From Pseudomonas sp. PSE14 (lineage in GTDB: Bacteria > Pseudomonadota > Gammaproteobacteria > Pseudomonadales > Pseudomonadaceae): a stretch of 64,000 bases of DNA. The position numbers and the translations under genes are program-made. The notes beneath the pieces are model-generated. The model was not told the DNA's origin. It searched no databases and was given only the letters and a program-made list of their open reading frames with translations. Each line of letters begins with the position of its first letter. Position 1 is the first letter of the stretch. This document shows positions 28,336 through 42,225 of this stretch, piece after piece. The DNA lies in contig NZ_CP115669.1 of NCBI RefSeq assembly GCF_029203285.1, forward strand, positions 1,240,001 through 1,304,000, read 5' to 3'.

Positions 28336-28402
28336 CCCCGGCCAGTGTGCTGACGCGCCGGGACGATTTCGCGGACAAGGTTCGCTCCTACAAGATCAAG
28401 GG

Positions 28403-28522
28403 CCCCTCACCCTAACCCTCTCCCGCAAGCGGGAGAGGGGACTGTTCGGTGCAGGATGAAACCGTAGTGTCAGCCGGCACGGACGGCGCCCTCTCCCTGA
28501 GGGAGAGGGCTGGGGTGAGGGG
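28403..28522. repeat. Second copy of the CCCTCACCC-ended extragenic repeat
   Basis: Same layout as 19787-19901: an outer inverted repeat of about 20 bases, each arm with its own CCCTCTCCC hairpin, with a spacer holding a related AGCCGGCAC segment. Sits between the RidA terminator and the bufferin promoter. Confidence 0.8.
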
Positions 28523-28643
28523 GAAAGCCCTGGCACAGATTCAGCCGGGACAAGACAGTTGCTCCTACAGTTCCGCGTCGCGCCTCCTCTTCGCAGGGTG
28601 GGCTTGCTCGCGAACACCCTCCGTACCGAACTCCCCCCGCAAA

Positions 28644-28659
28644 TGTATTCCTTTGTATC
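28644..28659 (+). promoter_or_regulatory. TGTAT direct repeat, probable response-regulator site (site 1)
   Basis: TGTATTCCTTTGTATC: two TGTAT half-sites one helical turn (10 bp) apart, 198 bp upstream of the EGKCG precursor start. The same layout occurs at 33630 and 35782. OmpR-family regulators bind tandem direct repeats with 10-11 bp periodicity. An inverted GGATACAGACATACAAAAG follows at 28675. Confidence 0.6.
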
Positions 28660-28856
28660 CGCCATCCCCTGACGGGATACAGACATACAAAAGACTCCCG
28701 CTCCAGATACGCCGGCGATACATCGCTACGGCGAAATAGCCCTACCCGAACGAAACAACGCGACGGCAGGGAAAACCCTTCCAGCGCCTCGTTCCAGGGA
28801 TTCGCCCTTGTGGCATTACCCGGCGCGGAACGCGCCACAGCATCTGGAGAAGCACA

Positions 28857-29327
28857 ATGACTCGTATCTCGAAAACCCAACTCGGCCTGCTCGCTGTCGC
28901 CCTGGCCGGTGGCCTGAACCTGGCGTCCTCCGCCTTCGCTGTCGAAGCGCTGCCCCAGGGCTACCAACTCGCTTCGGCGGAAAAAGCCGGGGAGGGCAAG
29001 TGTGGCGAGGGCAAATGTGGCGCCAGCGGCGCCCAGGCCAAGGCCACCCAAACCAAGGCTACCGGCACCGAAGGCAAGTGCGGTGAAGGCAAGTGCGGCG
29101 ACGCCTCCTTCGCCCGTACCGATGCCGACCACGACGGCCGCGTCTCCCGCGCCGAACTGCTGGCCGTGGCGCCCAAGGCCAACGCCGAATTCGACGCCAT
29201 CGACGCCAACCACGACGGCTTCCTTTCCGAAGGCGAAACCTACCAGTTTCGCAAGAACCAGTTCGACTCCAACGGCAAGCCGTTCCCGTCCGACCTGTAC
29301 AGCAAGCTGAGCCAGGCCAAGAACTGA
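28857..29327 (+). CDS. hvfA: EGKCG-repeat bufferin/HvfA-like RiPP metallophore precursor with EF-hand pair
   Basis: 156 residues. Signal peptide to about residue 28 (SSAFA). Two blocks of tandem [11 protein letters not shown] (residues 45-55 and 72-81) place four Cys in EGKCG motifs, the segment that DUF692/MNIO enzymes convert to oxazolone-thioamide (HvfA) or thiooxazole-type (bufferin) metal ligands. Unlike a simple HvfA, the C-terminal half carries two canonical EF-hands: D89-x-D91-x-D93-G-x-V-x-x-x-E100 and D116-x-N118-x-D120-G-x-L-x-x-x-E127. It is the first gene of an operon with the DUF692 and DUF2063 genes. The expected role is periplasmic copper sequestration; the EF-hands suggest a Ca2+-binding scaffold. 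Start has GGAGAAGCACA upstream. Confidence 0.85.
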
Positions 29328-29391
29328 TCCGCGCCGACAACCTCCCCGCGCCGCTGGCCGGGGAGGGCACTTCCCTCCGAAGGAGACCGCC

Positions 29392-30237
29392 ATGACTCTT
29401 CCCGTTTCCCTGCACGGTGCCGGCCTCGGTCTGCGTCGCGCGCTGCTGCCCGAACTGCTGACCATGGCCGACGGCGCGGTGGACTTCCTCGAAGTTGCCC
29501 CGGACAACTGGATCGGCGTCGGCGGCTCCTACGGTGAAGGCCTTGCCCGCCTGGCCGAACGCTTCCCGCTGTCCTGCCATGGCCTGTCGCTGTCCCTGGG
29601 CGGCCCCGAGCCGCTGGACCACGTCTTTCTGCGCCGCGTCCGCGAATTCCTCGACCAGCACCAGGTGCCGCTGTTCAGCGAACACCTGAGCTACTGCTCC
29701 GACGACGGCCACCTGTATGACCTGATTCCCATGCCCTTCACCGACGAAGCCGTGCGCCACATCGCCGGACGCATCCGTGAAGTGCAGGACGCCCTCGGCC
29801 GCCGTATCGCCGTGGAAAACATCTCCTACTACGCCGCGCCCTACCAGGCGCTGAGCGAAATCGACTTCCTCCGCGCCGTGCTCGCCGAAGCCGACTGCGA
29901 CCTGCTGCTGGACGTCAACAACCTCTACGTCAACGCCCACAACCATGGCTATGACGCTGCCGGTTTCCTCGCCCGCGTGCCGGCCGAGCGTGTCGTCTGC
30001 CTGCACGTGGCTGGTCACTACGACGAAGCGCCGGACCTGAAGATCGACACCCACGGCGCCGCCGTAAAGCCGGACGTCTGGAGCCTGCTGGCCAGCGCCT
30101 ACCACCACCTGGGCATGGTGCCGACGCTGCTGGAGCGCGACTTCAACCTGCCGCCGCTGGCCGAACTGCTTGGCGAAGTGAACTGCATCCGTGAGCTGCA
30201 GATGGCCGCCCGGCCGCTGGAGGTGCGTCATGGCTGA
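29392..30237 (+). CDS. hvfB: DUF692 multinuclear non-heme iron oxidative enzyme (MNIO), HvfB/BufB type
   Basis: 281 residues, TIM-barrel. Iron-ligand segments are visible in order: [11 protein letters not shown] (His), FSEHLSY (Glu/His), VENISYY (Glu/Asn), [15 protein letters not shown] (Asp, Asn, His), LHVAGHYD (His) and DTHGAAV with LLERDFN. MNIO enzymes such as MbnB, TglH and HvfB oxidise cysteines of precursor peptides to thiooxazole or oxazolone-thioamide. Here the substrate is almost certainly the EGKCG precursor 65 bp upstream. It overlaps the next gene by 8 bases. GGAGACCGCC precedes the start. Confidence 0.92.
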
Positions 30238-31003
30238 GAGCCTGCGCGAGCAGCAGCTGCGCATGACCCGCTTCATCCGCGACCCGCAGGCCAACGAGCC
30301 ACCGCCCGGCATCGAGGCACGGCGCCTGGCGGTGTACCGGCAACTGTTCTTCGGCAACCTGCAATCGCTGCTGGCCGGCAACTTCCCGGTGCTGAGTGCG
30401 AGCCTTGGCACCAAGCAATGGCAGTCGCTCACCGAAGACTTCTATGCCCGTTACCGCTGCCACACGCCGCTGTTCACCGAAGTGGCCGGCGAGTTCGTCG
30501 AGTACCTGGAAAGCCGCGCCGACCAGCCCGGCTGGGTGGCCGAACTGGCCCACTACGAATGGATCGAGACCGCGCTGCTGCTCAGCGATAAAGCCGAGCC
30601 GGCCCATGATCCGGACGGCGACCTGCTCGACGGCGTGCCGCTGCTCTCCAGTCTCGCCGTGCCGCTGGCCTATGCCTGGCCGGTCAGCCATATCGGCCCG
30701 GACAACCTCCCGCCGGCAGCGCCGGCCGAACCCGCGTTGCTGCTGGCCCGCAGAGGGGCAGACCTGAAGGTGCATTTTTCGCGCCTTGCGCCCCTGGCCC
30801 ATGCCCTGCTGGTGTCGCTGCAACAGTGGCAGCTCACCGGCCGTGAACACCTCAAGGCGCTGGCGGAAATCGCCGGCATCGAACTGGCTGCCATCGAAGG
30901 GCAGGGCATTGCCCTGTTGCGCAGCCTCAAAGAGCAAGGCGTGGTGATTGGCACCCGCCCCAACTGCACCACTTCACGTCGTCTACCATTGGCTCGCCCC
31001 TGA
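30230..31003 (+). CDS. hvfC: DUF2063 partner protein (HvfC/BufC type)
   Basis: 257 residues. N-terminal DUF2063 domain ([53 protein letters not shown]) followed by a C-terminal helical/HTH-like region. DUF2063 proteins form the RRE-containing partner that delivers the precursor to the MNIO enzyme, as MbnC does for MbnB. Start at 30230 lies 8 bases inside the DUF692 gene, indicating translational coupling. The C terminus ([12 protein letters not shown]) is basic. Length is normal. Confidence 0.88.
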
Positions 31004-31015
31004 AGGAGAAGCACC

Positions 31016-31438
31016 ATGACCGATACCCTGGCAACCGTGATCTACACCGCCCAGACCCACACCACCGGCGGCCGCGACGGGCGCGGCCAGAGCACCGACG
31101 GCGCGCTGGACCTGCCGCTGAGCCCGCCCGGCTCCGGCCGTCCCGGCACCAACCCCGAGCAGCTGTTCGCCATCGGCTGGTCCGCCTGCTTTATCGGCGC
31201 CCTGCGTCGCTCCGGCCAGAAGCTGAATATTCGCCTGCCCGGCGACGTGGCGGTGGACGCGGAAGTCTCCCTGGGCAACACCGCCGACGGCGGCTTCGCC
31301 CTGGCCGCCCAGCTCACCGTGCACCTGCCGGGTTTGTCGGCGGAGGACAAGGGGAAGCTGGTGGCCGAGGCGCACCAGATCTGCCCCTACTCCAAGGCGA
31401 CTCGCGGGAATATCGAGGTGGGGTTCGTCATTCCCTGA
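31016..31438 (+). CDS. ohr: Ohr/OsmC-family organic hydroperoxide reductase
   Basis: 140 residues. Peroxidatic Cys in GWSACFIGALR (about residue 60) and resolving Cys in AHQICPYSKATRGN (about 125) with a conserved Arg/Glu environment place it in the Ohr branch of OsmC, which reduces organic hydroperoxides using lipoyl thiols. It starts 12 bp after the DUF2063 stop with AAGGAG, so it is co-transcribed with the metallophore genes. No ohrR regulator is adjacent. The linkage suggests defence against copper-driven lipid peroxidation. A terminator follows. Confidence 0.92.
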   Translation: MTDTLATVIYTAQTHTTGGRDGRGQSTDGALDLPLSPPGSGRPGTNPEQLFAIGWSACFIGALRRSGQKLNIRLPGDVAVDAEVSLGNTADGGFALAAQLTVHLPGLSAEDKGKLVAEAHQICPYSKATRGNIEVGFVIP

Positions 31439-31460
31439 TCGCTTTCCAATCCACAGCCCA

Positions 31461-31493
31461 GCCCGCGCACCCTCACCGGTGCGCGGGCTTTTT
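31461..31493 (+). terminator. Rho-independent terminator closing the hvf-ohr operon
   Basis: GCCCGCGCACC and GGTGCGCGGGC form an 11-bp stem with a 6-base loop, followed by TTTTT. Confidence 0.9.
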
Positions 31494-31501
31494 GCTTTTG
31501 T

Positions 31502-31703
31502 GTAGGAGCGAGCTTGCCCACCGTCAGGCGTTTGGATCGGTCTCGTAGGATGGGTGGAGCGGAGCGATACCCATCGATCCCACGCGATCACAGCATGGGT
31601 ATCGCACGCTCCACCCATCCTGCGCACTGCGCGATTGCGACCGGCCGAGCATGGGGTATGAATTCCGGATGTAGGGCGAATAACGCCCCAGGCGTTATCC
31701 GCC
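31502..31703. repeat. Composite of REP remnant and GATACCCATC-type repeat
   Basis: 31502-31517 is a truncated REP unit. 31548-31574 and 31595-31620 form a long inverted repeat (GGATGGGTGGAGCG...GATACCCAT). 31670-31703 repeats the GGCGTTATCCGCC module seen inverted at 17139. This fills the 374-bp gap to 31812; no gene seen in it. Confidence 0.8.
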
Positions 31704-31812
31704 ATGCACTCCCGTTCGTAGCGAAGAGATTGGCTGATGCATCGGTAGCGGATAACTGCGAACGGTTTTGCGCCCCTTGCTGCAGGAGCGCCGAGTGGGC
31801 CGCGGCGACGGG

Positions 31813-32151
31813 TCAGTTGTAGCGCTGGGCCGCCAGTGCCCGTTCCTGGCTGATGGGCTGGAGTACCGGGTGTTGGCTTTCGATATGAATGTACAGGTAA
31901 TACCGGCCGTCCCTGTCGGATATCACGCGATGCACTTCGAAGAGTTTGTTCATCCGGCCTTTGGCACCAGGGACCAGTTGTTCATGCAGCAGATCGTATT
32001 CGCGGATGTTGTGCTGCTTGAGTGTGTCCAGGAATGGACCTTCGGCTTGGCTTCTCAACTCGATCTTGGCGGACTTCTCGACGGCCAGTATTGCCTTGAT
32101 GAGCAAGGCAAGGCCGGCCACGGCAAATAGCGCTTTTACCAACAGGCCCAT
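31813..32151 (-). CDS. Uncharacterised membrane-anchored 112-residue protein
   Basis: Opens MGLLVKALFAVAGLALLIKAI, an uncleaved-looking membrane anchor, then a soluble domain (KIELRSQAEGPFLDTLKQHNIREYDLLHEQLV, VHRVISDRDGRYYLYIHIES). Start at 32151 has AAGGAAG upstream; the longer in-frame ORF is shadow. No family recognised. It reads away from the DoxX gene with a terminator between them, so an independent unit. Confidence 0.65.
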   Translation of the reverse strand: MGLLVKALFAVAGLALLIKAILAVEKSAKIELRSQAEGPFLDTLKQHNIREYDLLHEQLVPGAKGRMNKLFEVHRVISDRDGRYYLYIHIESQHPVLQPISQERALAAQRYN

Positions 32152-32228
32152 GGGTAACTTCCTTGTATTCGACCGAGCTGATTGTGCCTCGGGCGGTAGT
32201 CCAAGGGGCATCATTCGACACGGACAAA

Positions 32229-32260
32229 GAAAAACGCCCTCTCCAATGGAGAGGGCGTTT
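32229..32260 (-). terminator. Rho-independent terminator after the minus-strand DoxX gene
   Basis: On the minus strand, AAACGCCCTCTCC ATT GGAGAGGGCGTTTTTC: a 13-bp stem followed by a T run, about 30 bp beyond the DoxX stop. Confidence 0.88.
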
Positions 32261-32288
32261 CTGCCGAACAGCCGGGGGTGGAGATCGA

Positions 32289-32804
32289 TCAGCTGACGCG
32301 CGAAGCCCCCAGGAATCGCCGCACCAGCCCATCCACGCTCAGCGCACCCGAGCCCTTGAGCATCAGCGGCAGCAATGCCACCAGGTAGATCAGCGGCAGT
32401 TTGTAGTTGCCAAAGCCATGGTCGGTGATCGAGTAGCCCTGGGCGAGTTCCGCGAGGCTCGACCACTGTGCCGGCCAGTGCACCGCGGCGATGGCGACGA
32501 GGGTCACGACGATCAGCGAAGCGGAGGCGAAGCGCGTGGCCAGGCCCAGCAACAACAGCACGGGCGCGATCAACTCGGCCCACATCGACACCTGCCAGTC
32601 GAAGCCAGCGGAGAAGTGGTTGAAGGGGAAGGGGAAGTTGGCGTGGATCTGTTCGAACCAGTTGTCGCCGTGCCATTTCTCCAGGCCCGACTCGAAGAAC
32701 TCCCAGGCCAGGAACAGCCGCAGGGGAATGTCCCAGCCCCAGGCAGCGAGACGGTCGAGTTGGTCGAAGACGGCTTTGATCGGGTTCAGGGTCAGCAGGG
32801 TCAT
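32289..32804 (-). CDS. DoxX-family membrane protein
   Basis: 171 residues, four membrane helices. DIPLRLFLAWEFFESGLEKWHGDNWF and the central FPFNHFSAGFDWQVSMWAELIAPVLLLLGLATRF are the DoxX pattern. Start at 32804 uses GAGGTG upstream; two further in-frame ATGs lie at 32816 and 32822. DoxX/SURF4-like proteins recur in bufferin and gig operons and are thought to be redox-linked membrane partners. It is the last gene of a minus-strand run headed by the ferric-reductase-like gene, 77 bp away. A second DoxX gene closes the bufA1 operon. Confidence 0.82.
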   Translation of the reverse strand: MTLLTLNPIKAVFDQLDRLAAWGWDIPLRLFLAWEFFESGLEKWHGDNWFEQIHANFPFPFNHFSAGFDWQVSMWAELIAPVLLLLGLATRFASASLIVVTLVAIAAVHWPAQWSSLAELAQGYSITDHGFGNYKLPLIYLVALLPLMLKGSGALSVDGLVRRFLGASRVS

Positions 32805-32880
32805 GGCGCACCTCATGGGCAATACAGTGGGTAAGGTTGTGTCGGCCGGGCGTCATCGGCGGTCGCGGAAGAAGGCGGAT

Positions 32881-33528
32881 TCAGCGGGTAGCGCTCAGCG
32901 CGGCAGCGGGGCGGGTTTCACGGCGCAGGCGCATGGCCAGCTTTGCAGTGAGCTTGAGGGCGACCGCCGAACTGATCAGCGCGAAGCCCAGCGGGTACCA
33001 GGAGCCCAACGGCAGGCGCTTGTAGAACGACAGGACGAAGACGGCGGCGATGACCCAGGTGCCGGTGCTGTGCAGGATCTTCCAGGCGCGGGCGCCGAGC
33101 AGCTTCACGGCGGCGGGGAAGGAGGTGACGGTCAGCAGGATGATGAACAGGTAGCCGATGGAGCCGGGGATGTTCGCGGCGACGCTGCGGCCGTGCCAGA
33201 AGGTCTCGGGGAAGAACTTCACGTAGAGCATGATCAGCACCGCGTGCACGGCATGGGAGAAGGCGAAGGCCAGCCCCAGGAAGCGCCGCTCGCGCAGCAG
33301 GCCGCGGGTGAAGGCGCTGGGTATCAGGACCGCCAGGGACGAGGCGAGGAAGGCGGCGAGGAACAGCGCGAAGGATGTACGCGCGGTGGTGCGGATTGCG
33401 CTGCGCAGGGCGTCCACCCATTGCGGCTGGGCACACAGGGCCAGCGCGGTGACGATCAGCACCAGAGCGGACAGCAGGGAGAACAGGCGCCAGCCATGCA
33501 GGCTGGCGGATTCGGCGGGACGGGTCAT
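32881..33528 (-). CDS. Ferric-reductase-like transmembrane protein (haem-binding, MsrQ/YedZ-like)
   Basis: 215 residues, about six membrane helices. Histidines suited to haem axial ligation occur in AFAFSHAVHAVLIMLYVKFFP and in WKILHSTGTWVIAAVFVLSFYKRL, the paired pattern of the ferric reductase/YedZ membrane domain. There is no flavin or NAD domain, so it would pass electrons across the membrane with another donor. Start at 33528 has AAGGAGCC. Placed between the two-component genes and DoxX and preceded by a TGTAT box, so probably part of the same regulon. Confidence 0.75.
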   Translation of the reverse strand: MTRPAESASLHGWRLFSLLSALVLIVTALALCAQPQWVDALRSAIRTTARTSFALFLAAFLASSLAVLIPSAFTRGLLRERRFLGLAFAFSHAVHAVLIMLYVKFFPETFWHGRSVAANIPGSIGYLFIILLTVTSFPAAVKLLGARAWKILHSTGTWVIAAVFVLSFYKRLPLGSWYPLGFALISSAVALKLTAKLAMRLRRETRPAAALSATR

Positions 33529-33590
33529 GGCAGGCTCCTTGGGGAACGCGGCGTGCGGGATGCCGCCGCGATTCGTGGAGCCATGCTGCC

Positions 33591-33628
33591 GACGGGCTTT
33601 ATCTCGGATGTGTCCGCTAAAGCCCGTC
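33591..33628. other. Inverted repeat in the leader of the ferric-reductase-like gene
   Basis: GACGGGCTTTA (33591-33601) and TAAAGCCCGTC (33618-33628) form an 11-bp perfect stem with a 16-base loop, 63 bp upstream of the start at 33528 and directly beside the TGTAT box. It has no U tract on the minus strand. It may be the histidine-kinase transcript end or a 5'-leader structure. Confidence 0.55.
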
Positions 33629-33629
33629 A

Positions 33630-33645
33630 TGTATCCCTTTGTACA
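33630..33645. promoter_or_regulatory. TGTAT direct repeat (site 2)
   Basis: TGTATCCCTTTGTACA on the plus strand: the same 10-bp-spaced half-sites as at 28644 and 35782, located 102 bp upstream of the minus-strand ferric-reductase-like gene and between it and the kinase stop. Its orientation relative to the gene is opposite to the other two. Confidence 0.55.
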
Positions 33646-33665
33646 GTCCTTTCACGAGCAAGGTG

Positions 33666-34976
33666 TCAGGCGGAGGGGCGCAACTCCAACTGAGCGCACA
33701 GCCCGCCGCTGGCGCGGTTGGACAGGCTCAGGGTGCCGCCCAGCGCCTGGCTCAGCTGCTGGGCGATTGCCAGCCCCAGGCCGGTGCCGCCGGTGCTGCG
33801 GTTGCGCGAGCTTTCCACGCGGTAGAAGGGTTTCACCACTTCTTCCAGTTCCTCTTCGGGGATGCCCGGGCCTTCGTCCAGTACACGAACACACACGATG
33901 CCCTGGGCGTCGCGCTCGACTTCCACCTGGGCGGAGCCGCCAAACTTGAGCGCGTTGTCCACCAGGTTGGTGAGCACCCGGCGCAGCGCATGCGGGCGGG
34001 TTTCCAGCACGGCGTTGCTGTTTCCTTGCAGCTCCACGGCTTGGCCGCTGTCCTGATAGTCGAGGACGAGACTATCGAGGAAGGCATCGAGGTTGACCTT
34101 CACCGCCGCCTCGCTGGCGCCGTCCATGCTGCGCGCATAGGCCACGCCTTCGCGGACCAGGTGCTGCATTTCCTCCAGGTCGCTCCACAGGCGCTCGCGC
34201 TCGGGGGAGTCGTCCATCTGCTCGACGCGCAGTTTCATCCGCGTGATGGGGGTCTGCAGGTCATGGGAGATGGCGGCGAGCAGTTGCATGCGTTCCTTGA
34301 GATACGATCCGATGCGACCCTGCAGTGCGTTGAAGGCGCGGGCGGCATAGGCGACTTCGCTGGGGCCGCGTTCATCCAGCTCCGGCGCCGGGGCGTCCGG
34401 GTCGAGGTGATCCACCGCCTGGGCCAGCCGGGTCAGCGGGCGGATGGCCAGGCGTACCGCGAGCCAGGTGCAGAAGAGCAGCAGTGCCAGTTGCACGATC
34501 AGCACCCAGGGCAGCCACTGCGCCACAGGTACGCCCTTGGGCGTCACGTCGATGGTCAGCGGGCTGCCGTCCTTGAGTGTCAGGTGTACCTGGAAGTGCG
34601 GGATGGAGCCTGGGATGTTCTCGAAGCGCAGTGGGTAGCGCGGCCCGACCACTTCGGCGATGGACAGGGCGGCCATCGGCGCCTCCGCCATGTTCATCGG
34701 TTCTCCCGGCTGGCCCTCGCTCAGCAGGTAGCGGTAGTTGGGCCGCTGCACCATGTGTAGCCACGCCTCGCGTTCATCCCTGGGCAGGCGGTCGAGCAGG
34801 GCGACGGCGGTGCTGACGTCGGTTTCCAGGTTGCCCAGCATCATGTTGCGGGCGCTCTGGTAGCGCTCGTAGAACTGCGAGCAGAACGACAGGCTGTAGG
34901 CGAACACCAGCCCGGCGAGGAAGATCAGCGCCAGGCGCGCGGCCAGCGTACGTGGCCAGTGCAGGACGGATTTCAT
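33666..34976 (-). CDS. Sensor histidine kinase of a two-component system
   Basis: 436 residues. TM1 at about 12-32 and TM2 at about 155-178 bracket a periplasmic domain of about 120 residues that carries Met/His-containing stretches (HMVQRPNYRY, EPMNMAEAPMAAL). HAMP follows TM2. HisKA box ISHDLQTPITRMKLRVEQM holds the phospho-accepting His. The HATPase domain has TNLVDNALKFGG, DEGPGIPEEELEEVVKPFYR and GTGLGLAIAQQL. All catalytic boxes are intact. Its ATG overlaps the response-regulator stop (ATGA). Signal not known; the metal-stress neighbourhood makes a metal or redox cue plausible. Confidence 0.92.
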   Translation of the reverse strand: MKSVLHWPRTLAARLALIFLAGLVFAYSLSFCSQFYERYQSARNMMLGNLETDVSTAVALLDRLPRDEREAWLHMVQRPNYRYLLSEGQPGEPMNMAEAPMAALSIAEVVGPRYPLRFENIPGSIPHFQVHLTLKDGSPLTIDVTPKGVPVAQWLPWVLIVQLALLLFCTWLAVRLAIRPLTRLAQAVDHLDPDAPAPELDERGPSEVAYAARAFNALQGRIGSYLKERMQLLAAISHDLQTPITRMKLRVEQMDDSPERERLWSDLEEMQHLVREGVAYARSMDGASEAAVKVNLDAFLDSLVLDYQDSGQAVELQGNSNAVLETRPHALRRVLTNLVDNALKFGGSAQVEVERDAQGIVCVRVLDEGPGIPEEELEEVVKPFYRVESSRNRSTGGTGLGLAIAQQLSQALGGTLSLSNRASGGLCAQLELRPSA

Positions 34977-35713
34977 GCGTTGGGCTCGAGCAGTTCGACG
35001 GCCAGGGCGAAGACGTAGCCTTCGCTGCGCACCGTCTTGATGTAGGCCGGCTCGCGGGCGTCATCCAAAAGGCGTTGGCGCAGGCGGCTCACCAGCAGGT
35101 CGATGGAGCGGTCGAAGATGTCCGCCTCGCGGCCTTGCGTCAGGTTCAGCAGTTGTTCGCGGCTGAGCACGCGCTGCGGGTGGTCGACGAACACGCGCAG
35201 CAGGCGGTACTCGGCGCCGCTCAGGGCGACCAGGGTGCCGTCTTCGTCGAGCAGGTGGCGCGCCGTGGTGTCCAGCTTCCAGCGGCCGAAGCCGATCAGC
35301 CGGCTGGCCTCGCTGACCTGCAGGTTCGGCGGCAGCATGCGGGTGCGGCGCAGCACGGCGTTGATCCGCGCCAGCAGCTCGCGGGCGGAGAAGGGCTTGG
35401 TGAGGTAGTCGTCGGCGCCCATTTCCAGGCCGATGATGCGGTCGGTCTCGTCGTTGCGCGCGGTGAGCATCAGCACCGGGGTGGATTTGTGCTTGCCCAC
35501 GCGCAGCTCGCGACACAGTTTCAGGCCGTCGTCGCCGGGCATCATGATGTCCAGCACGATCAGATCCACGGTGTTGCCGTCGAGGAAGGCGCGCATCTGC
35601 CGTCCGTCCGCGGCCAGGCTCACGCGCAGGCCGTTCTTCTTCAGGTAGTTGCCGACCAGCTCGCGGATCTCGCGGTCGTCATCGACGATGAGTACGTGAT
35701 CGACATGGTCCAT
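34973..35713 (-). CDS. OmpR/PhoB-family response regulator
   Basis: 246 residues. Receiver: VLIVDDDREIRELV with the acidic pair, phospho-acceptor Asp in DLIVLDIMMPGDDG, the Thr in MLTARND and Lys in YLTKPFSARELLA. C-terminal winged helix: LSGAEYRLLRVFVDHPQRVLSREQLL and VSRLRQRLLDDAREPAYIKTVRSEGYVFAL. Start at 35713 (MDHVDHVLIV) has GAGGAAC upstream. OmpR-type wings bind tandem direct repeats, and a TGTAT repeat lies 69 bp upstream of this start, suggesting autoregulation. Confidence 0.94.
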   Translation of the reverse strand: MDHVDHVLIVDDDREIRELVGNYLKKNGLRVSLAADGRQMRAFLDGNTVDLIVLDIMMPGDDGLKLCRELRVGKHKSTPVLMLTARNDETDRIIGLEMGADDYLTKPFSARELLARINAVLRRTRMLPPNLQVSEASRLIGFGRWKLDTTARHLLDEDGTLVALSGAEYRLLRVFVDHPQRVLSREQLLNLTQGREADIFDRSIDLLVSRLRQRLLDDAREPAYIKTVRSEGYVFALAVELLEPNA

Positions 35714-35781
35714 GCCGGTTCCTCGTTCGTAGTGGGTTGAGCGAAGTGTATAGCGCCGCTCCGCGCTTGCCCCGCGCGCTT

Positions 35782-35797
35782 TGTATTCCACTGTATC
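35782..35797 (+). promoter_or_regulatory. TGTAT direct repeat (site 3)
   Basis: TGTATTCCACTGTATC lies between the divergent response-regulator gene (start 35713) and the DUF2790 gene (start 35938). Same 10-bp period and the same central TCC as site 1. One site could serve both directions. Confidence 0.6.
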
Positions 35798-35937
35798 TCG
35801 CGCCGCCGTCGATACCTGGCGCGGCAATCCCGCGCCGCACGCGACACAAGCCCGATACCTCCGGCCACTGAAATGGGCGCCAACGGCAAGGCAAACCGCC
35901 TCCCGCCGGCAAACCCATCACAGGACAGGAGTTCATC

Positions 35938-36210
35938 ATGAAAGCTCTTCACCTCGGCAGCGCCTGCCTGCTTGCCGCTATCGCCACCTTCTCCAGCCTC
36001 GGCGCCCAGGCTGCCGATTCCACGCCGGTCGAGCAGTATCACTATGGCCAGAAACTCGACGTAAAGCAGGTCATCGCCATCCACGAAGACAGCGGCTCTC
36101 CGTTCGACTGCGGCATCGTCGAGGCCCGCATGGATTACCTGGATTCCCACGGCCAGGCGCACAGCCTGGGGTACCGCAAGTTCGCCACGAACTGCAACGA
36201 AGGCGGCTGA
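35938..36210 (+). CDS. DUF2790 family secreted protein
   Basis: 90 residues. Signal peptide to about residue 25 (LGAQA), then TPVEQYHYGQKLDVKQVIAIHED and the DUF2790 pattern FDCGIVEARMDYLDSHGQAHSLGYRKFATNC with two Cys likely forming a disulfide. The family is largely Pseudomonas-specific, periplasmic and of unknown function. Strong GACAGGAG upstream. It is divergent from the two-component genes and preceded by the shared TGTAT box, so likely a regulon member. dipZ follows 88 bp later. Confidence 0.85.
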   Translation: MKALHLGSACLLAAIATFSSLGAQAADSTPVEQYHYGQKLDVKQVIAIHEDSGSPFDCGIVEARMDYLDSHGQAHSLGYRKFATNCNEGG

Positions 36211-36298
36211 TTTCCCCTTGGCCCCGGCCATGGACGGCCGGGGCGTTTCTTCTCATGCCTGCTCGCAAACTCAGGGCCGCTGGCCCATCGAGGTGCCC

Positions 36299-37504
36299 AT
36301 GTTGCTCATCGCCTTTCTCGGCGGGGCGCTGACGCTGCTCAGTCCCTGCATCCTTCCCGTCCTGCCGCTGCTGCTGCAACGCGCCGGCGGCCCGGCGTGG
36401 TCGCCCTGGGTCACGCTGCTCGGGCTGGCCAGCGGCTTCGCTGTGCTGGCTAGCCTGGCCACGGTCTCCAGCAACTGGGTGATCGCCGCCAGCGAATGGG
36501 GTCGCTATGTCGCCCTGGTATTGCTCGGGGTTTCCGCATTGGCGCTGCTCTGGCCGCGCTTCAGCGATGGGTTGGGCAAACCCTGGGCCTGGATCGGCGA
36601 CCGTCTGCACGGCGAAGCCCGCCGCATGCCGCCGGCGGTTTCCGCATGGGTGCTGGGTTTTGCCGCCGGCCTGCTGTGGGCGCCTTGCGCGGGGCCGGTG
36701 CTCGGCCTGATCCTCTCCGGTGCCATGCTCCAGGGCCCTAGCGCGCAGACCAGTCTGCTGCTGTTCGCCTATGGCCTGGGCAGCGCCACTGTGCTCGGTA
36801 TCGTCCTCTTCGCTGGCCGCCGGCTGATGCAGCACCTGCGCCCGCGCATGGCCGTCATCGAAGGTCTGCGTCGCGCCACCGGCGTGCTCGCCCTGCTGGC
36901 GGTGGTCGGCATCGCCAGCGGCGCCAGCGCGCAGCTTGCCTCCGGCAGTTCGTCCATTCTGGTGAACAGCCTGGAACACAAGGTCATCGACAGCGTGCCC
37001 GCGCTGCTCACCAGGCTCATGCCCGGCGATACCGCCCAGGGCGCCGAACGCCTGCCGGACCTCGGCGCCGCCCCGGAGCTCGCGGGCGCGGTGGAGTGGA
37101 TCAACAGCCCCGAACTGAAGACGCAGGGCCTGCGCGGCAAGGTGGTATTGATCGACTTCTGGACCTACGACTGCATCAACTGCCAGTACAGCCTGCCGTA
37201 CGTGAACGCCTGGGCGAAGCAGTACGCGGACCAGGGCCTGGTGGTGATCGGCGTGCACACCCCGGAATACCCCTACGAGCGCATCCGGGCCAATGTCCGC
37301 GACGCGGTGAAGCGCCACGACATCCACTACCCGGTGGCGCTGGATAACCAGTACCGCATCTGGAACGCCTTCGGTAACCAGTACTGGCCGGCGCACTACT
37401 TCATCGATGCCAAGGGGCGGATTCGCCACCTGGCGATCGGGGAGGGTGGGTATGGGGAACAGGAAGAGGTGATCAAGGCGCTGTTGAAGGAGAAAGCGAA
37501 GTAA
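36299..37504 (+). CDS. DipZ-like fusion of CcdA membrane domain and TlpA/thioredoxin domain
   Basis: 401 residues. The N-terminal ~200 residues form a CcdA-type domain whose paired redox cysteines sit in LSPCILPVLPLLL (TM1) and LLWAPCAGPVLGLIL (TM4). After a linker the periplasmic C-terminal domain (about residues 265-400) is thioredoxin/TlpA-like with active site WTYDCINCQYSLPYV and the cis-Pro region PVALDNQYRIWNAFGN. The protein would carry reducing power from cytosolic thioredoxin to periplasmic thiols. Start at 36299 has GAGGTG; upstream codons are shadow. It is 88 bp after the DUF2790 gene. Reduction of bufferin cysteines would be a fitting role, but that is inference. Confidence 0.9.
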   Translation: MLLIAFLGGALTLLSPCILPVLPLLLQRAGGPAWSPWVTLLGLASGFAVLASLATVSSNWVIAASEWGRYVALVLLGVSALALLWPRFSDGLGKPWAWIGDRLHGEARRMPPAVSAWVLGFAAGLLWAPCAGPVLGLILSGAMLQGPSAQTSLLLFAYGLGSATVLGIVLFAGRRLMQHLRPRMAVIEGLRRATGVLALLAVVGIASGASAQLASGSSSILVNSLEHKVIDSVPALLTRLMPGDTAQGAERLPDLGAAPELAGAVEWINSPELKTQGLRGKVVLIDFWTYDCINCQYSLPYVNAWAKQYADQGLVVIGVHTPEYPYERIRANVRDAVKRHDIHYPVALDNQYRIWNAFGNQYWPAHYFIDAKGRIRHLAIGEGGYGEQEEVIKALLKEKAK

Positions 37505-37529
37505 CTGCCGGCTGAGCGATGGTCAATTG

Positions 37530-37556
37530 AAAAGCCCCGCGTTTGCGGGGCTTTTC
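37530..37556 (+). terminator. Rho-independent terminator after dipZ (bidirectional)
   Basis: AAAAGCCCCGC GTTT GCGGGGCTTTT; also positioned to terminate the convergent higBA operon. Confidence 0.88.
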
Positions 37557-37563
37557 AACTGCT

Positions 37564-37965
37564 TCAGAAGAACACGTCAGTAGGTACGTTGAATCGTTCG
37601 CTGAGCGCCCGAATATGACGGACGTTGAGCTGGCGTTTGCCGTTGAGGATTTCGGATACCACGGACTGCGCACCTATCTCCGGCAGGTCATTCTGGGTCA
37701 ACTGATGCTCGGTCATGAGAAAACGTAGTACTTCACGCCCTGGCACGTCTGGAATGGGATAGTGCTCGGTATCGTAGGCGGCGATCATGTCGCCGATCTG
37801 CGAGGCCAGAGAACTGAGCGGATGGTTCTCTTTGCCGCCGATTTCATCGAGCAGTTCGTCCAGCGCTTCGACCAGGGTGTCGTAGTCCGCCTCGGTGTTT
37901 GGTGGTGTGAGCAGCGGAGCGACGAAGCGCCAGTGCTCTGCGGCCTGTTTCAGTAGTGCACTCAT
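37564..37965 (-). CDS. higA: HigA-type antitoxin with C-terminal XRE helix-turn-helix
   Basis: 133 residues. The N-terminal half (LLKQAAEHWRFVAPLLTPPNTEADYDTLVEALDELLDEIG) is the HigA toxin-facing region; the C-terminal half is an XRE fold (LRFLMTEHQLTQNDLPEIGAQSVVSEILNGKRQLNVRHIRALSERF). ATG at 37965 has GAGG upstream; a GTG two codons earlier is possible. It lies 7 bases downstream of the toxin stop, the toxin-first order typical of higBA. It should repress its own operon through the palindromes at 38271-38327. Confidence 0.9.
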   Translation of the reverse strand: MSALLKQAAEHWRFVAPLLTPPNTEADYDTLVEALDELLDEIGGKENHPLSSLASQIGDMIAAYDTEHYPIPDVPGREVLRFLMTEHQLTQNDLPEIGAQSVVSEILNGKRQLNVRHIRALSERFNVPTDVFF

Positions 37966-37972
37966 GCGCACC

Positions 37973-38257
37973 TCACTTCCATTGATTGCGGTCGTACTCT
38001 TTATGATCGAGTACGGCCCGGATGAAAACCTTCTTGAAGACGTAATCCACGGTGGCGACCAGCCTCAGCTTGTTACCACCGATATCGAACACATGCTTGT
38101 CGCCCACCTTGTCCACGCTGGGAAAGATTTGCTTCATCGCGGCAAAGTCCTTCGGCTCCACCTTTTTCATCAGCCGGCACCAGGCGTCGAGTGCGGTGGA
38201 GGAGTGGGGCCAACTTTCCTGAGCTTCCCGAATACGCTTCTGGGTAATGACATGCAT
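37973..38257 (-). CDS. higB: HigB-type mRNA interferase toxin
   Basis: 94 residues, RelE/HigB fold. MHVITQKRIREAQESWPHSSTALDAWCRLMKK, then FDIGGNKLRLVATVDYVFKKVFIRAVLDHKEYDRNQWK, the conserved HigB C-terminal strand with catalytic His/Asp/Tyr residues (DHKEYD). HigB cleaves mRNA on the ribosome. Start at 38257 is 14 bp from the first operator palindrome. Together with higA a complete type II toxin-antitoxin module. Confidence 0.92.
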   Translation of the reverse strand: MHVITQKRIREAQESWPHSSTALDAWCRLMKKVEPKDFAAMKQIFPSVDKVGDKHVFDIGGNKLRLVATVDYVFKKVFIRAVLDHKEYDRNQWK

Positions 38258-38270
38258 GCTCGATGTTCGT

Positions 38271-38327
38271 ATCGCAAATTGCTATACGGAATCGTATTAC
38301 TCCACCGGGGATATAGCAAGTTGCTAT
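38271..38327. promoter_or_regulatory. Twin palindromic operators of higBA
   Basis: ATCGCAAATTGCTAT (38271-38285) and ATAGCAAGTTGCTAT (38313-38327) share AT-N-GCAA-N-TTGCTAT and have centres 42 bp apart, four helical turns, placing two HigA dimers on one face of the promoter. Confidence 0.75.
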
Positions 38328-38414
38328 GTGATGTCTGGCTACGAAGACTGCCCAATGGCTGGATTCGCGCAGATCCGATGTGGTCGGCCTGCACGGCCAA
38401 CGGAGTACCCGTCC

Positions 38415-39056
38415 TCACCACCGCAACAACTTCGGCCCCAGCAACGCCCCCGCCACAGTGGGCACGAGCATCCCCAGCAGGTACCAGACGCCCCAGAACG
38501 GCACGCCCATTTCCGGGCAGTGCAGGCAGTAGGCGAGGGTGGCGGTAGCCCCGGCGAGCAGGCCGCCGGCGGCGCCGGCCTGACGCAGGCGGGTAGGGGC
38601 GAGGCCGCGCAGGGCCCAGAACACGGCGGCGAACGTCGGCAGCGAAAGCAGGGTGATGTTCAGCGGGCAGGTGCGCCAGGTGCGGCCGAGGATCAGGTCG
38701 GCGCGGGCTTCCGGCGGCGCGCCGACGAGGGTGACGGCCGCGCCCAGCCAGACCAGCAGCAGGGGCAGGACGAGCAGCGTCCAGGCGGCGCCGCCGCGCA
38801 CGCCCGGCCGGGCCAGGCGCTGGTTGAGCCAGAGGGCGAGCAGGGCGAGGCTGCCGGGCAGCGCGACCTTGGCCCAGAACAGCGGGGTGCGCGCCACCTC
38901 GGCGAGGTCGGCGCGTACGCCATACAGCGCCGCCATCAGCAGCAGCGCGCCGAGGCCGCCGCCGAGCAGCGCAAGGCCCAGGCGGCGCGCCAGGGCGTGG
39001 CGCTCCACGGGGCCTTCGCCGCTGGCGAGCAGGTCGATCAGTTCATTGGTGTTCAT
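38415..39056 (-). CDS. nrsF: NrsF-type anti-sigma factor (DUF1109)
   Basis: 213 residues with six hydrophobic segments and a short cytoplasmic N terminus ([19 protein letters not shown]) that would hold the sigma factor. Three cysteines: C130 (TWRTCPLN) and C177/C180 (LAYCLHCPEMG). Caulobacter NrsF has its two metal-sensing cysteines at almost the same positions (about 131 and 181). Metal or dichromate attack on them is thought to release SigF. It overlaps the sigma gene by 14 bases. The bufA1 operon is divergent, matching the Caulobacter arrangement in function. Confidence 0.88.
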   Translation of the reverse strand: MNTNELIDLLASGEGPVERHALARRLGLALLGGGLGALLLMAALYGVRADLAEVARTPLFWAKVALPGSLALLALWLNQRLARPGVRGGAAWTLLVLPLLLVWLGAAVTLVGAPPEARADLILGRTWRTCPLNITLLSLPTFAAVFWALRGLAPTRLRQAGAAGGLLAGATATLAYCLHCPEMGVPFWGVWYLLGMLVPTVAGALLGPKLLRW

Positions 39057-39603
39057 CGTTACGCTTACCTCGAATCATGCCGGCCAGCGCCTTCAGGCCA
39101 CGGTGGATGCCGACCTTGACCGCCGAACTGGACAGCCCGGTGAGACGCGCGGTCTCTTCCACCGACAGTCCCTCCAGCTTCACATGGACGATCGGCAAAC
39201 GCTGGCGCTCGGGCAGGTGCTGGAGCAGCTTGCCCAGGTCGCGGCTGGCCTGCGCGGTCTCCTCGTCGCCCTCGGCGAACAGGTCACTGTCGTCGTCCAG
39301 CGGGTCATGCAGCGCATCGCGCCGGGCGAAGGCGCGGAAGTGGTCGGCCAGCTTGTAGCGGGCGATGGCCTGCACCCAGGCGGTCAGCGGCTGGTCGGCG
39401 CGATAGGTGTGACGGGCGTTGTGGACCGCCAGCAGGACTTCCTGCAGCAGGTCCTCGATCTCGCTGGGGCGTCGCTCCAGGCGCCGTCGCAAAAAACCGC
39501 GCACATGGCTCGCCAGGTGCGCGAGAAATTCGCGATAGGCCGCCGCATCACCCGCCATGCCGCGCAGCAGCAGGGCCTGCAACTGCGCTTCACGCGCGCT
39601 CAA
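39043..39603 (-). CDS. sigF: SigF-type ECF sigma factor
   Basis: About 186 residues from the TTG start I prefer. Sigma2: [31 protein letters not shown], then [41 protein letters not shown]. Sigma4: [47 protein letters not shown]. The longest ORF would start at an ATG at 39630, but that codon lies across the -10 element of a promoter matching the bufA1 one. TTG at 39603 (GAGAGGA four bases upstream) fits both the promoter and the usual N terminus. Held by NrsF, whose gene overlaps its 3' end. Confidence 0.88.
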
Positions 39604-39619
39604 TGCGTCCTCTCGGGTA

Positions 39620-39646
39620 GTTCGTTGCATCGGCCGCCTGGGTTAC
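39620..39646 (-). promoter_or_regulatory. SigF-type promoter of sigF-nrsF (GTAACC-N16-CGAAC)
   Basis: On the minus strand GTAACC (39646-39641), 16 bases, then CGAACTACC (from 39624). The bufA1 promoter has GTAACC, 16 bases, CGAATTACT. The shared spacing and flanks imply autoregulation. Confidence 0.7.
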
Positions 39647-39779
39647 ATCCGTGAGCAAATTTTCTTTTCCGGATCGCTCTGCTGTCAGTGGCGGGCAATC
39701 CCTGGGCATGAAAAACGTCAGCACTTCATAACGTTAGCGGGGGTGATGGAAAAATCTCAAAAAAAATTTCCAGGTGCCT

Positions 39780-39806
39780 GTAACCACCGCCGCGCAGCAC
39801 ACGAAT
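39780..39806 (+). promoter_or_regulatory. SigF-type promoter of the bufA1 operon (GTAACC-N16-CGAAT)
   Basis: GTAACC at 39780-39785 and CGAAT at 39802-39806, 57 bp upstream of the bufA1 start. As I recall, Caulobacter SigF promoters show a GTAACC -35 and CGAA -10. Confidence 0.72.
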
Positions 39807-39862
39807 TACTCCACGAGCCCGGCAGTTCGCCGAGCCATTCCAACCCTCGTGGAGACGACATC

Positions 39863-40150
39863 ATGAAAAGCCTCACCCTCGCCACCGCCGCCCTTGCTCT
39901 CGCCTCCCTGGCTGGCGTTGCCCTCGCGGACGACACGAAGACCCCGGCCGGCAGCGGCGCGGCCATGGAGAAGTGCTACGGCGTGGCCATGGCCGGCAAG
40001 AACGACTGCAAGGCCGGCGCTGGCACCACCTGCGCGGGCAGCGCCAAGAAGGACTACGACGGCATGCACTGGAAGAACGTCCCGGCAGGCACCTGCACCA
40101 CCATCAAGACGCCCCACGGCATGGGCTCGCTCACCCCGATGAAGTCCTGA
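39863..40150 (+). CDS. bufA1: BufA1-type bufferin precursor (DUF2282)
   Basis: 95 residues. Signal peptide to about residue 22 (GVALA). Core: [14 protein letters not shown] (C38, C49), [13 protein letters not shown] (C57) and VPAGTCTTI (C78), the four-Cys pattern of DUF2282. In Caulobacter BufA1 these cysteines are converted to thiooxazole groups by the DUF692/DUF2063 pair and bind copper. Strong GGAGAC upstream of the start. It leads bufA1-bufB-bufC-doxX behind a SigF-type promoter. The C terminus ([11 protein letters not shown]) is typical. Confidence 0.93.
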
Positions 40151-40166
40151 CAGGGAGGCGCCGACC

Positions 40167-41000
40167 ATGTCTGTGTGCAACCGAATGGGCGCCGGTCTGG
40201 GGCTGAAGGCCGAGCATTACGGCGAAGCCTGGACGTGCGACGCCGACGGCCTGTGGTTCGAGGTCCATCCGGAGAACTACATGGTCGGCGGCCCTCGCCG
40301 CACCTGGCTTGAGCGGATGGCCGAGCGCCACCCGCTCTCGCTGCACGGCGTCTCGCTGTCGCTGGCGGCGGACGCCCCGCCGGACGCGGAGCACCTGCAA
40401 CGCCTGCGTGGGCTGGTGGACCTCGTCGAGCCGGCGCTGGTCTCCGAGCACCTGGCCTGGTCCGCCTGGCAGGGCCGATACCACCCGGACCTGCTGCCCT
40501 TCCCGCGGACTGACGAGGCCCTGGCGCGCATCGCCGACAATATCCAGCGCACCCAGGACGCCCTCGGTCGACGCATCGCCATCGAGAACCCGAGCCATTA
40601 TCTGCGCCTGGACGGCCACGACTGGGACGAGATCGACTTCCTCGCCGAACTGGTGCGGCGCACGGGTTGCGCGCTGCTGCTGGACGTCAACAACGTCCAT
40701 GTCAGCGCCCACAACCTCGACTACAGTGCCGCCGCTTACCTGGACCGGGTGCCCGCCGAGGCCATCGCCGAGATTCATCTTGCCGGGTACAGCCACGACG
40801 AAGGCGGCACGTTGTTGATCGACTCCCACGACGCTGCCATCGCCGAGCCGGTCTGGGCGCTCTACCAACGCCTGGTCCAGCGCATCGGGCCACGGCCTAC
40901 GCTGATCGAGCGGGATGACCATATCCCCGCGTTCGGCGAACTGCTGGCCGAGCGCGAGATCGCCCAGGCCACGCTGAATCTCGCAGGAGGCTGCCCATGA
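40167..41000 (+). CDS. bufB: DUF692 MNIO enzyme, BufB type
   Basis: 277 residues. Opens [19 protein letters not shown], the MNIO start. Ligand segments: [66 protein letters not shown] and LIERDDHIP. It differs clearly from the other DUF692 at 29392 and matches the BufB group that pairs with DUF2282. It should install thiooxazoles on BufA1. GGGAGGCG precedes the start, 17 bp after bufA1; overlaps bufC by 4 bases (ATGA). Confidence 0.94.
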
Positions 41001-41752
41001 AACGCACCCTCGGCCAGTTCCAGGACGCCTTCATCGACGCCCTCTACCAGCGCCCGGCACCCGAACTGGATGCGCTGACCTCACAGGCGGCCTTCGCCGT
41101 CTACCGCAACACCGTGCTCAAGGGCTGCGTGGACGCCCTCTGTGACAACTACCCCAGCGTCGAGCGGCTGGTCGGCACGCCATGGATGCGCGCCGCTGCC
41201 GCCGAATACGCCTGGCGCTCGCCACCGACTGATGCGCGGATGGCGCGCTACGGGGCGGCGTTCCCGGCCTTTCTCGCGGATCTGGAAAGCGCCCGCGAGT
41301 TGCCGTACCTGGCCGATGTGGCGCGGCTGGATCGCGACTGGCTGGAGGTTTTCTGCGCGCCCACCGAGCCGAGCCTGGAACTGACGTCGCTGGTGGGCAT
41401 GACCGCCAGCGACCTCGGCGGGCTCTGCCTGCAACCACGCCGCGCGGTGCGCTGGCGCTGGTTCGAGACACAGCCGGTATACAGCCTCTGGCACTGCAGC
41501 CGCGAAGGCCTGGACTGGTCGGAGGAACTGCCATGGATCGGCGAGGGTGCGCTGCTGGTGGCCGGCTCCGAGGGCGTTGTCGGGCTACCGCTGGAGAAAG
41601 GCGGCTGTGCCTTCCTCGATGCCTGCGCCGCCGGCCATGTCCTCGACCAGGTCTCGACGCTGGCGCTGGAGGCTCAGCCCGATCTGGACTTCACCGACCT
41701 GCTCGGCCGCCTGCTGCGCGCCAATGTCTTCCGTCCCCTTTGCCTCGATTGA
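40997..41752 (+). CDS. bufC: DUF2063 partner protein, BufC type
   Basis: 251 residues. N-terminal DUF2063: [79 protein letters not shown]. The C-terminal region includes a beta-rich RRE-like part ([23 protein letters not shown]). It is required with BufB for precursor modification. ATGA overlap with bufB. 12 bp before the DoxX gene. Confidence 0.9.
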
Positions 41753-41763
41753 AGGAGCCCGCC

Positions 41764-42225
41764 ATGGACATCGCCCATCCCTCTCCCGCGTCCCCCCGCC
41801 GGCTGTGGAACCAGTTGGCCGACTGCCTGCAGCACTGTCTTGGCGAATCCTTCCTGTGCCTGGTGGCGCGGTTGGGGATTGCTTCGGTGTTCTTCATGTC
41901 CGGGCGGACCAAGGTCGAGGGCCTGCTGACCATCACCCCGAGCACCTACGACCTGTTCCAGACCGAGTACGCGCTGCCGCTGATCTCGCCGTACCTCGCG
42001 GCGCACCTGGCGACCTACGCCGAACACCTGTTCCCGATCCTGCTGGTGCTCGGCCTGTTCACCCGCCTGTCGGCGCTGGCGCTATTGGGGATGACCACGG
42101 TGATCGAAGTCTTCGTCTATCCGGACGCTTGGCCCACGCACCTGTCATGGGCCGGCCTGTTGCTGCTGCTGATCGCGCGCGGGGCGGGTGGATGGTCGCT
42201 GGATCGGCTGTTGCGGCTGCGCTGA
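41764..42225 (+). CDS. DoxX-family protein of the bufferin operon
   Basis: 153 residues, four membrane helices. [34 protein letters not shown], then [49 protein letters not shown]: the DoxX pattern found as the last gene of gig/buf operons. Start at 41764 with AAGGAGCCCGCC. Probably supports export or membrane redox chemistry for the metallophore; no direct evidence. Stop lies 7 bp from the convergent stop at 42233. Confidence 0.9.

Follow-up and report, generated by a model that had tools for sequence, protein, structure and literature searches.

We analysed a stretch of 64,000 nucleotides from the genome of Pseudomonas sp. PSE14 (bases 1240001–1304000; hereafter the window), part of which carries two operons for ribosomally synthesised and post-translationally modified peptides (RiPPs), each built around a maturase of the MNIO (DUF692) family. 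An earlier note on this DNA had described an EGKCG-repeat precursor with DUF692 and DUF2063 genes, and a DUF2282 precursor with DUF692, DUF2063 and DoxX genes; both operons are present, at 28857–31003 (NF050137, HvfB and HvfC models passed) and at 39863–42225 (DUF2282, BufB and DUF2063 cut-offs passed). The genes it had placed between them, namely a two-component system, a reductase-like membrane protein, a DoxX protein, DUF2790, a DipZ-like fusion and SigF/NrsF, were all found as well (Table 1). Judged by gene content and distribution, the region is two adjacent blocks, each with its own MNIO RiPP operon, rather than one island. Not listed in the note were the two EF-hands of precursor 1, ohr, a HigB-type toxin/antitoxin pair and a small open reading frame. 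Block 1 (28.64–37.5 kb) comprises efhP-hvfB-hvfC-ohr, hvfX with the reductase-like gene, a bfmRS-type system and DUF2790-dipZ, whereas block 2 (38.4–42.2 kb) has the standard sigF-nrsF/Buf1 make-up, its exact SigF promoters facing in both directions. In the whole genome (5.98 Mb, a single contig) there are two MNIO genes and one DUF2282 gene.

Table 1 Features of the two blocks, in positions of the window. Coordinates listed are those of the mended starts; queries for the hvfC, response regulator, DipZ-like and reductase products and for a small open reading frame (31813–32151) began a codon or two past the likely Met, and that for the Buf1 precursor one codon ahead of it (39860).
Feature	Position	Strand	Basis
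BfmR-type box TACAAAGGAATACA	28644..28657	-	1 mismatch; ~200 bases upstream of efhP
Shorter published BfmR motif GATACANNGC (GATACATCGC)	28717..28726	+	motif search
efhP-type precursor	28857..29327	+	four EGKCG motifs and two EF-hands; signal peptide judged by eye
hvfB-type MNIO maturase	29392..30237	+	HvfB equivalog, 421 bits (cut-off 360)
hvfC-type DUF2063 partner	30230..31003	+	HvfC equivalog, 260 bits (cut-off 142); searched from 30233
Ohr family peroxiredoxin	31016..31438	+	12-base gap after hvfC, read from the sequence
hvfX-type DoxX membrane protein	32289..32822	-	HvfX equivalog, 140 bits (cut-off 80); start uncertain
Ferric-reductase/MsrQ-like membrane protein	32881..33528	-	weak MsrQ match, 22 bits (cut-off 130); PA4103 by synteny
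BfmR-type box TACAAAGGGATACA	33630..33643	-	exact; upstream of the reductase-hvfX genes; sole exact match in the genome
bfmS-type sensor histidine kinase	33666..34976	-	profile matches, synteny
bfmR-type response regulator	34973..35713	-	profile match, synteny; searched from 35707, two residues past Met
Weak BfmR-type box	35782..35795	-	2 mismatches; bfmR-DUF2790 intergenic region
DUF2790 small exported protein	35938..36210	+	adjoins bfmR in 19/19 other bfmR-bearing genus loci
DipZ-like fusion (DsbD-type membrane part and thioredoxin-like domain)	36299..37504	+	searched from 36302
nrsF-type anti-sigma factor	38415..39056	-	Pfam NrsF, 259 bits; Cys130, Cys177, Cys180
sigF-type ECF sigma factor	39043..39603	-	profile match; listed ATG at 39630
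SigF motif GTAACC-N16-CGAA for sigF-nrsF	39621..39646	-	exact
SigF motif GTAACC-N16-CGAA for the Buf1 operon	39780..39805	+	exact
Buf1 (DUF2282) precursor	39863..40150	+	86 bits (cut-off 22.4); signal peptide by eye; four Cys
bufB-type MNIO maturase	40167..41000	+	BufB equivalog, 357 bits (cut-off 310)
bufC-type DUF2063 partner	40997..41752	+	DUF2063, 66.8 bits (cut-off 27.2)
DoxX membrane protein of the Buf1 operon	41764..42225	+	51.7 bits to HvfX, under the cut-off of 80

The precursor of the first operon passes the NCBIfam KCGExKCG domain model NF050137 (38.8 bits, cut-off 19.5) and the Pfam EF-hand_5 model (35.9 bits, cut-off 25.9), and its EGKCG motifs are arranged as two pairs. With an EGKCG domain, two EF-hands and a signal peptide recognised by eye, its predicted product is an EGKCG/EF-hand chimaera of the P. 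aeruginosa EfhP (PA4107) type, 60–63% identical to the copy in another genome, G012. All three members of the HvfB/HvfC/HvfX maturation set pass their curated cut-offs. The HvfB-type MNIO carries Arg16 and Phe251, at the places of the Lys-Cys specificity residues Arg16 and Phe250 of FonB (PMC13097082; preprint PMC12668002), the sites having been identified from their position and from the Asp preceding Phe, without an alignment to FonB. Downstream, to judge from its spacing, ohr probably closes the efhP operon. The hvfX gene corresponds to PA4104 by synteny, and its reductase-like neighbour had no Pfam match. In the DipZ-like protein the thioredoxin-like part scored 51 bits and the DsbD_2 part 24.0, slightly below the cut-off of 24.9. 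Since DUF2790 and dipZ lie beside bfmR in 19/19 and 18/19 of the other bfmR-bearing loci of the genus, respectively, we counted both with block 1.

In P. aeruginosa, bfmRS (PA4101-4102) is followed by PA4103 (ferric-reductase-like)-PA4104 and by PA4107 efhP-PA4106-PA4105, with the dehydrogenase PA4100 alongside (PMC4148453, PMC8025907). G012 repeats this published PA4100-PA4107 order, including a GMC-type dehydrogenase (read from its open reading frame) on the far side, and the response regulators of G012 and the window share 90% identity. By this synteny, the published order being compared with G012, we assign the two-component system as BfmRS. A search of solved structures with the response regulator, the histidine kinase and the precursor returned general relatives only, among them a chain called BfmR that matched the response regulator at 117 bits. 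Across 59 aligned BfmS sensor domains, the window's included, residues 35–160 are free of Cys, and His 127 and 131 are kept in 98%; the window's BfmS has a Cys at 32. We take the conserved histidines and the Cys-free region as only a hint. To our knowledge, no signal sensed by BfmS has been described.

The promoters of bfmR, pa4103 and pa4107 are the top three bound by BfmR in P. aeruginosa, where efhP was reported to be activated 11,268-fold (PMC8025907). We searched for the published 14-base motif TACAA-N3-GATACA at up to two mismatches, and found it in the window at the matching promoters of bfmR, the reductase gene (PA4103) and efhP (PA4107), with 2, 0 and 1 mismatches, respectively. The position and strand of the efhP box recur at most efhP genes of other genomes: within 350 bases upstream of the gene it is present in 72 of 80 efhP loci at ≤1 mismatch and in 79 at ≤2. 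After 100 efhP upstream regions were thinned to 33 sharing less than 70% likeness, 26 retained a box at ≤1 mismatch and 32 at ≤2, as compared to 0.2% and 3% of shuffles. A box likewise precedes the reductase gene in 5/5 distinct regions (≤1 mismatch) and bfmR in 13/13 (≤2 mismatches; 1/13 at ≤1), DUF2790 sharing the bfmR intergenic region in 11/12 loci. Upstream of dipZ it occurs in 5/22 regions, and at ≤2 mismatches none was found upstream of the histidine kinase gene (0/2), ohr (0/4), Buf1 (0/2) or sigF (0/2). The shorter published motif is weak on its own, because the window holds two matches when 1.09 are expected by chance.

The same loci bear on another identity for the two-component system, DsbRS, the copper-sensing controller of dsbDEG in P. 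aeruginosa described in PMC10141476. A DipZ-like gene adjoining the response regulator in 18 of the 19 other genus loci would fit such a role; the gene order, however, is that of PA4101-PA4107, and the published BfmR box stands at all three matching promoters, which makes DsbRS a most improbable assignment. It was set aside on synteny, without direct comparison to a DsbR sequence.

We then considered whether the parts of block 1 belong together in other genomes. Among 25 genomes of the genus, efhP, the HvfB-type MNIO and BfmR are jointly present in 20 and jointly absent from five. A search of 298 genomes of the family (E-value thresholds of 1e-15 for efhP, 1e-115 for BfmR and 1e-60 for MNIO) found an efhP relative in 62, BfmR in 79 and an MNIO in 174; efhP genomes had BfmR in 61/62 cases and an MNIO in 62/62 (odds ratio for efhP-BfmR 739, kinship ignored). 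At the same time, the cluster is often physically divided, with no hvfB within the compared stretch in 44 of the 80 efhP loci, a few stretches being short (L062 ends ~500 bases past efhP). All 44 genomes with such a solo efhP have an MNIO elsewhere and a BfmR relative (best copy 85–91% identical), the two lying ≤10 kb apart in 26, on different contigs in 17 and 48 kb apart in one. The efhP box is kept at ≤1 mismatch in 43/44 solo loci and in 29/36 loci with hvfB. A lone efhP was noted before in P. fluorescens Pf0-1 (PMC4053335), and modification from another locus has been raised as a general possibility (PMC12452194). Taken together, the pattern points to a RiPP cluster whose pieces lie apart on the chromosome but apparently remain under one regulator.

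As a test of substrate status, we asked whether EGKCG is lost from efhP genes that have no MNIO beside them; the motif is retained in 44/44 solo loci, which we attribute to the MNIO sitting elsewhere in the genome. The split nonetheless lends itself to a different account of EfhP, as mainly a calcium sensor whose EGKCG cysteines stay unmodified (binding iron or copper) or sense redox, while the MNIO pair modifies something else. Separation of efhP from hvfBC in 44/80 loci is in keeping with that account, as are the reports that EfhP binds Ca2+ and influences iron uptake (PMC9132961, PMC11559002) and the mention in PMC11559002 that iron might bind at the four EGKCG repeats, with a suggested part in iron sensing. 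It is harder to square with the finding that efhP never occurred without an MNIO in the genomes examined (44/44 solo, 62/62 family), that at least four KCG motifs are present in 80/80 loci, and that HvfB has the Lys-Cys specificity residues. Moreover, in 26 loci where hvfBC stands apart (3.0–3.8 kb each), no EGKCG precursor was found within ~1.5 kb of these genes, the nearest thing being one SGKCG string in L130. We consider the calcium-sensor account unlikely, and favour EfhP as the substrate of HvfB/HvfC. The number of KCG motifs over the 80 loci ranged from 4 to 8 (8 in L053), and L064 holds two efhP-like genes ~1.5 kb apart. A second close BfmR-like gene (82–85% identical) was seen in 22 of the 44 solo-efhP genomes, with an in-frame TAG in two. 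G012 has a second MNIO of the HvfB type (L027), beside a separate HvfA-like precursor whose motifs are mostly SCG/TCG and in which no EF-hand was seen.

The second operon has the make-up of a Buf1 bufferin operon, with a four-Cys DUF2282 precursor, an MNIO and a DUF2063 protein in bufABC order; the precursor fell below the NCBI BufA2 (Buf2) model (21.3, cut-off 60). Its BufB has Ala15 and Asp251 at the sites where HvfB has Arg16 and Phe251. It neighbours sigF/nrsF with GTAACC-N16-CGAA promoters, a motif form taken from PMC3511200 and an association that is not universal among Buf1 clusters. The motif was exact in 24/24 Buf1 upstream regions, covering all 15 Buf1-bearing genus genomes, and absent at ≤1 mismatch from all 119 efhP upstream regions, repeats included. 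Upstream of sigF it was found in 0/23 regions when counted from listed starts; in the window it overlaps the listed ATG. Because the ATG at 39630 falls within the promoter motif, the likelier start of sigF is the TTG at 39603, which has GAGAGGA upstream.

Two MNIO RiPP operons under two controls, as claimed earlier, thus remain a fair description, with the BfmR-type boxes (operon 1) and the SigF promoters (operon 2) as candidate controls. The same note held the whole to be one copper/gold/thiol-stress island. On that reading both operons and the intervening genes would act as a unit kept together by selection; a possible gold link rests on the 'gig' operons mentioned in PMC12452194. Every part does have a plausible metal or thiol link, and the synteny search that the note proposed found the joint arrangement again, but in just three of the 25 genus genomes, the window's own and G019 and G022. 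HvfB-type MNIOs occur in 20 of these genomes, BufB-type in 15 and both in 14, and in 3 of these 14 the two lie ~11 kb apart; the three joint genomes are a lower bound, because some genomes are fragmented (G002 the most). BufB of the three joint genomes forms a single clade (100/100) with a long stem, whereas their HvfB sequences do not group as one clade, either in the main tree or in a single one of 200 bootstrap replicates, though no well-supported branch forbids such a clade. In these trees HvfB and BufB differ in history among the genus genomes. Nor is any box common to both operons. On distribution, trees and boxes we reject the joint island, which we regard as quite improbable. The supposed shared neighbourhood also comes apart, since the two-component system, hvfX, the reductase gene, DUF2790 and dipZ belong with operon 1, and sigF/nrsF with operon 2. 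That the two peptides are chemically different is doubtful as regards the ligand, 5-thiooxazole having been reported alike for EGKCG and DUF2282 products (PMC12668002, where the mass change is −8 Da for two cysteines).

These findings suggest, in our view quite probably, two independent thiooxazole-metallophore loci (bufferin/captophorin-type RiPPs) lying side by side, one controlled by BfmR and the other by SigF. BfmR, set by BfmS, would turn on efhP-hvfB-hvfC-ohr and the reductase-hvfX genes; HvfB/HvfC would convert the cysteines in the four EGKCG motifs of EfhP into 5-thiooxazoles by oxidation prior to Sec export; and mature periplasmic EfhP would bind copper, or another soft metal, at the thiooxazoles and Ca2+ at the EF-hands. 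HvfX, DipZ, Ohr and the haem-type membrane protein would assist in countering redox and thiol stress of the envelope. The signal in block 2 would be thiol-reactive metals acting on the NrsF cysteines, and the SigF so freed would transcribe both the Buf1 operon and its own; two of the four Buf1 cysteines would be modified by BufB/BufC, and Buf1 would buffer periplasmic copper. Gene content, boxes, co-occurrence and separate histories in this scheme come from our sequence comparisons, while the literature supplies BfmR regulation (from P. aeruginosa), the SigF/NrsF switch (from Caulobacter, where chromium releases SigF through the NrsF cysteines; PMC3511200) and thiooxazole chemistry with copper binding (from relatives, in EGKCG and DUF2282 products; PMC12668002). 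That the window's copies carry the modification and bind metal is our inference, as is a response of BfmS to metal or to thiol stress in the envelope.

Several observations weigh against this interpretation. Precursor 1 failed the HvfA equivalog (NF050188; 28.7 bits, cut-off 95) and NrsF the NF042994 equivalog (142 bits, cut-off 300). No sequence named as P. aeruginosa turned up for comparison, and the efhP box in the P. aeruginosa-like locus L191 is weak (2 mismatches) and on the opposite strand. The EfhP papers deal with Ca2+ binding and iron uptake, not copper (PMC11559002, PMC9132961). The window holds five BfmR-type matches against 2.39 expected, the remaining two (2 mismatches) lying at 59–60 kb, and 8/100 window shuffles reach five. 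Genome-wide, neither motif exceeds its reversed control (BfmR box 13 vs 14, ≤1 mismatch; SigF motif 7 vs 5); the case for both rests on location. A box precedes hvfX in 5/9 distinct regions, the reductase gene coming first in the other four, and at ≤2 mismatches only 14 of the 26 separated hvfB genes have one. G181 has efhP without BfmR, 18/79 BfmR genomes lack efhP at the thresholds used, and several of the 62 efhP matches are partial (e.g. G096, G190, G228); related genomes are not independent, and the counts are uncorrected for kinship.

Four known systems come closest. P. aeruginosa PA4101-PA4107 has the same kinds of genes in the same order and BfmR boxes at the three matching promoters; unlike it, the window has ohr after hvfC, dipZ beside DUF2790 and a Buf1 operon following. 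The chimaeras of PMC12452194 likewise have two EF-hands after a short EGKCG domain and are encoded next to MNIO and DUF2063 genes; BfmR has no occurrence in that paper. Oxazolin (HvfA) and fontiphorin (FonA), which are captophorins, share the EGKCG substrate, an Arg/Phe-bearing HvfB-type MNIO, HvfC and HvfX, whereas the window's precursor has an EF-hand tail and fails the HvfA cut-off, and its hvfX lies on the opposite strand. The Caulobacter sigF-nrsF/CC3254-CC3257 Buf1 operon is alike in gene content, order and promoter motif (PMC3511200); in contrast to it, the window's NrsF falls under the NCBI equivalog cut-off and the sigF promoter motif overlaps the listed start codon. The operons themselves are thus ordinary, since the chimaera and the Buf1 operon types are both in print.

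What this analysis adds is a proposed regulatory link between BfmRS and an MNIO metallophore system, one of the two operons looking like the core target of BfmRS. Among the open-access papers listed (most subscription journals lie outside the library searched) we found neither BfmR/BfmRS joined with an MNIO metallophore, bufferin or captophorin, nor a test of EfhP modification in any Pseudomonas or of what BfmS senses; two reviews contain BfmR together with a single word that starts with 'oxazolin'. Work on BfmRS has so far treated it as a switch for biofilm and for acute-to-chronic virulence, and the link joins two literatures: what the top three BfmR-bound promoters of P. aeruginosa (PMC8025907) drive appears, gene for gene, to be an MNIO metallophore system. 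With the two joined, the signal of BfmS and the native chemical state of EfhP become directly testable. More tentatively, and at somewhat less than even chances, BfmRS may at its conserved core be a dedicated sensor-activator of the thiooxazole metallophore system, with EfhP a Ca2+-binding, MNIO-modified copper protein, BfmS sensing envelope metal/thiol stress and BfmR still tying the pieces of the split cluster together.

Of the remaining features, a HigB-type toxin (PF09907) and an HTH antitoxin (37564–38257, reverse strand) lie between dipZ and nrsF; this higBA pair is absent from the joint genome G019 and follows dipZ in the non-joint genome G006, without a Buf1 operon there. The small open reading frame at 31813–32151 (reverse strand) has one apparent membrane helix and no Pfam or NCBIfam match, and of the loci compared only G019 (L189) showed a relative (75%). 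Rfam and tRNA scans gave a single match, a tRNA-Gly at 58.6 kb. Upstream of efhP, a repeat-like stretch at ~28400–28600 has PSPLPQGEG-like antisense translations, which we take to resemble common bacterial repeats.

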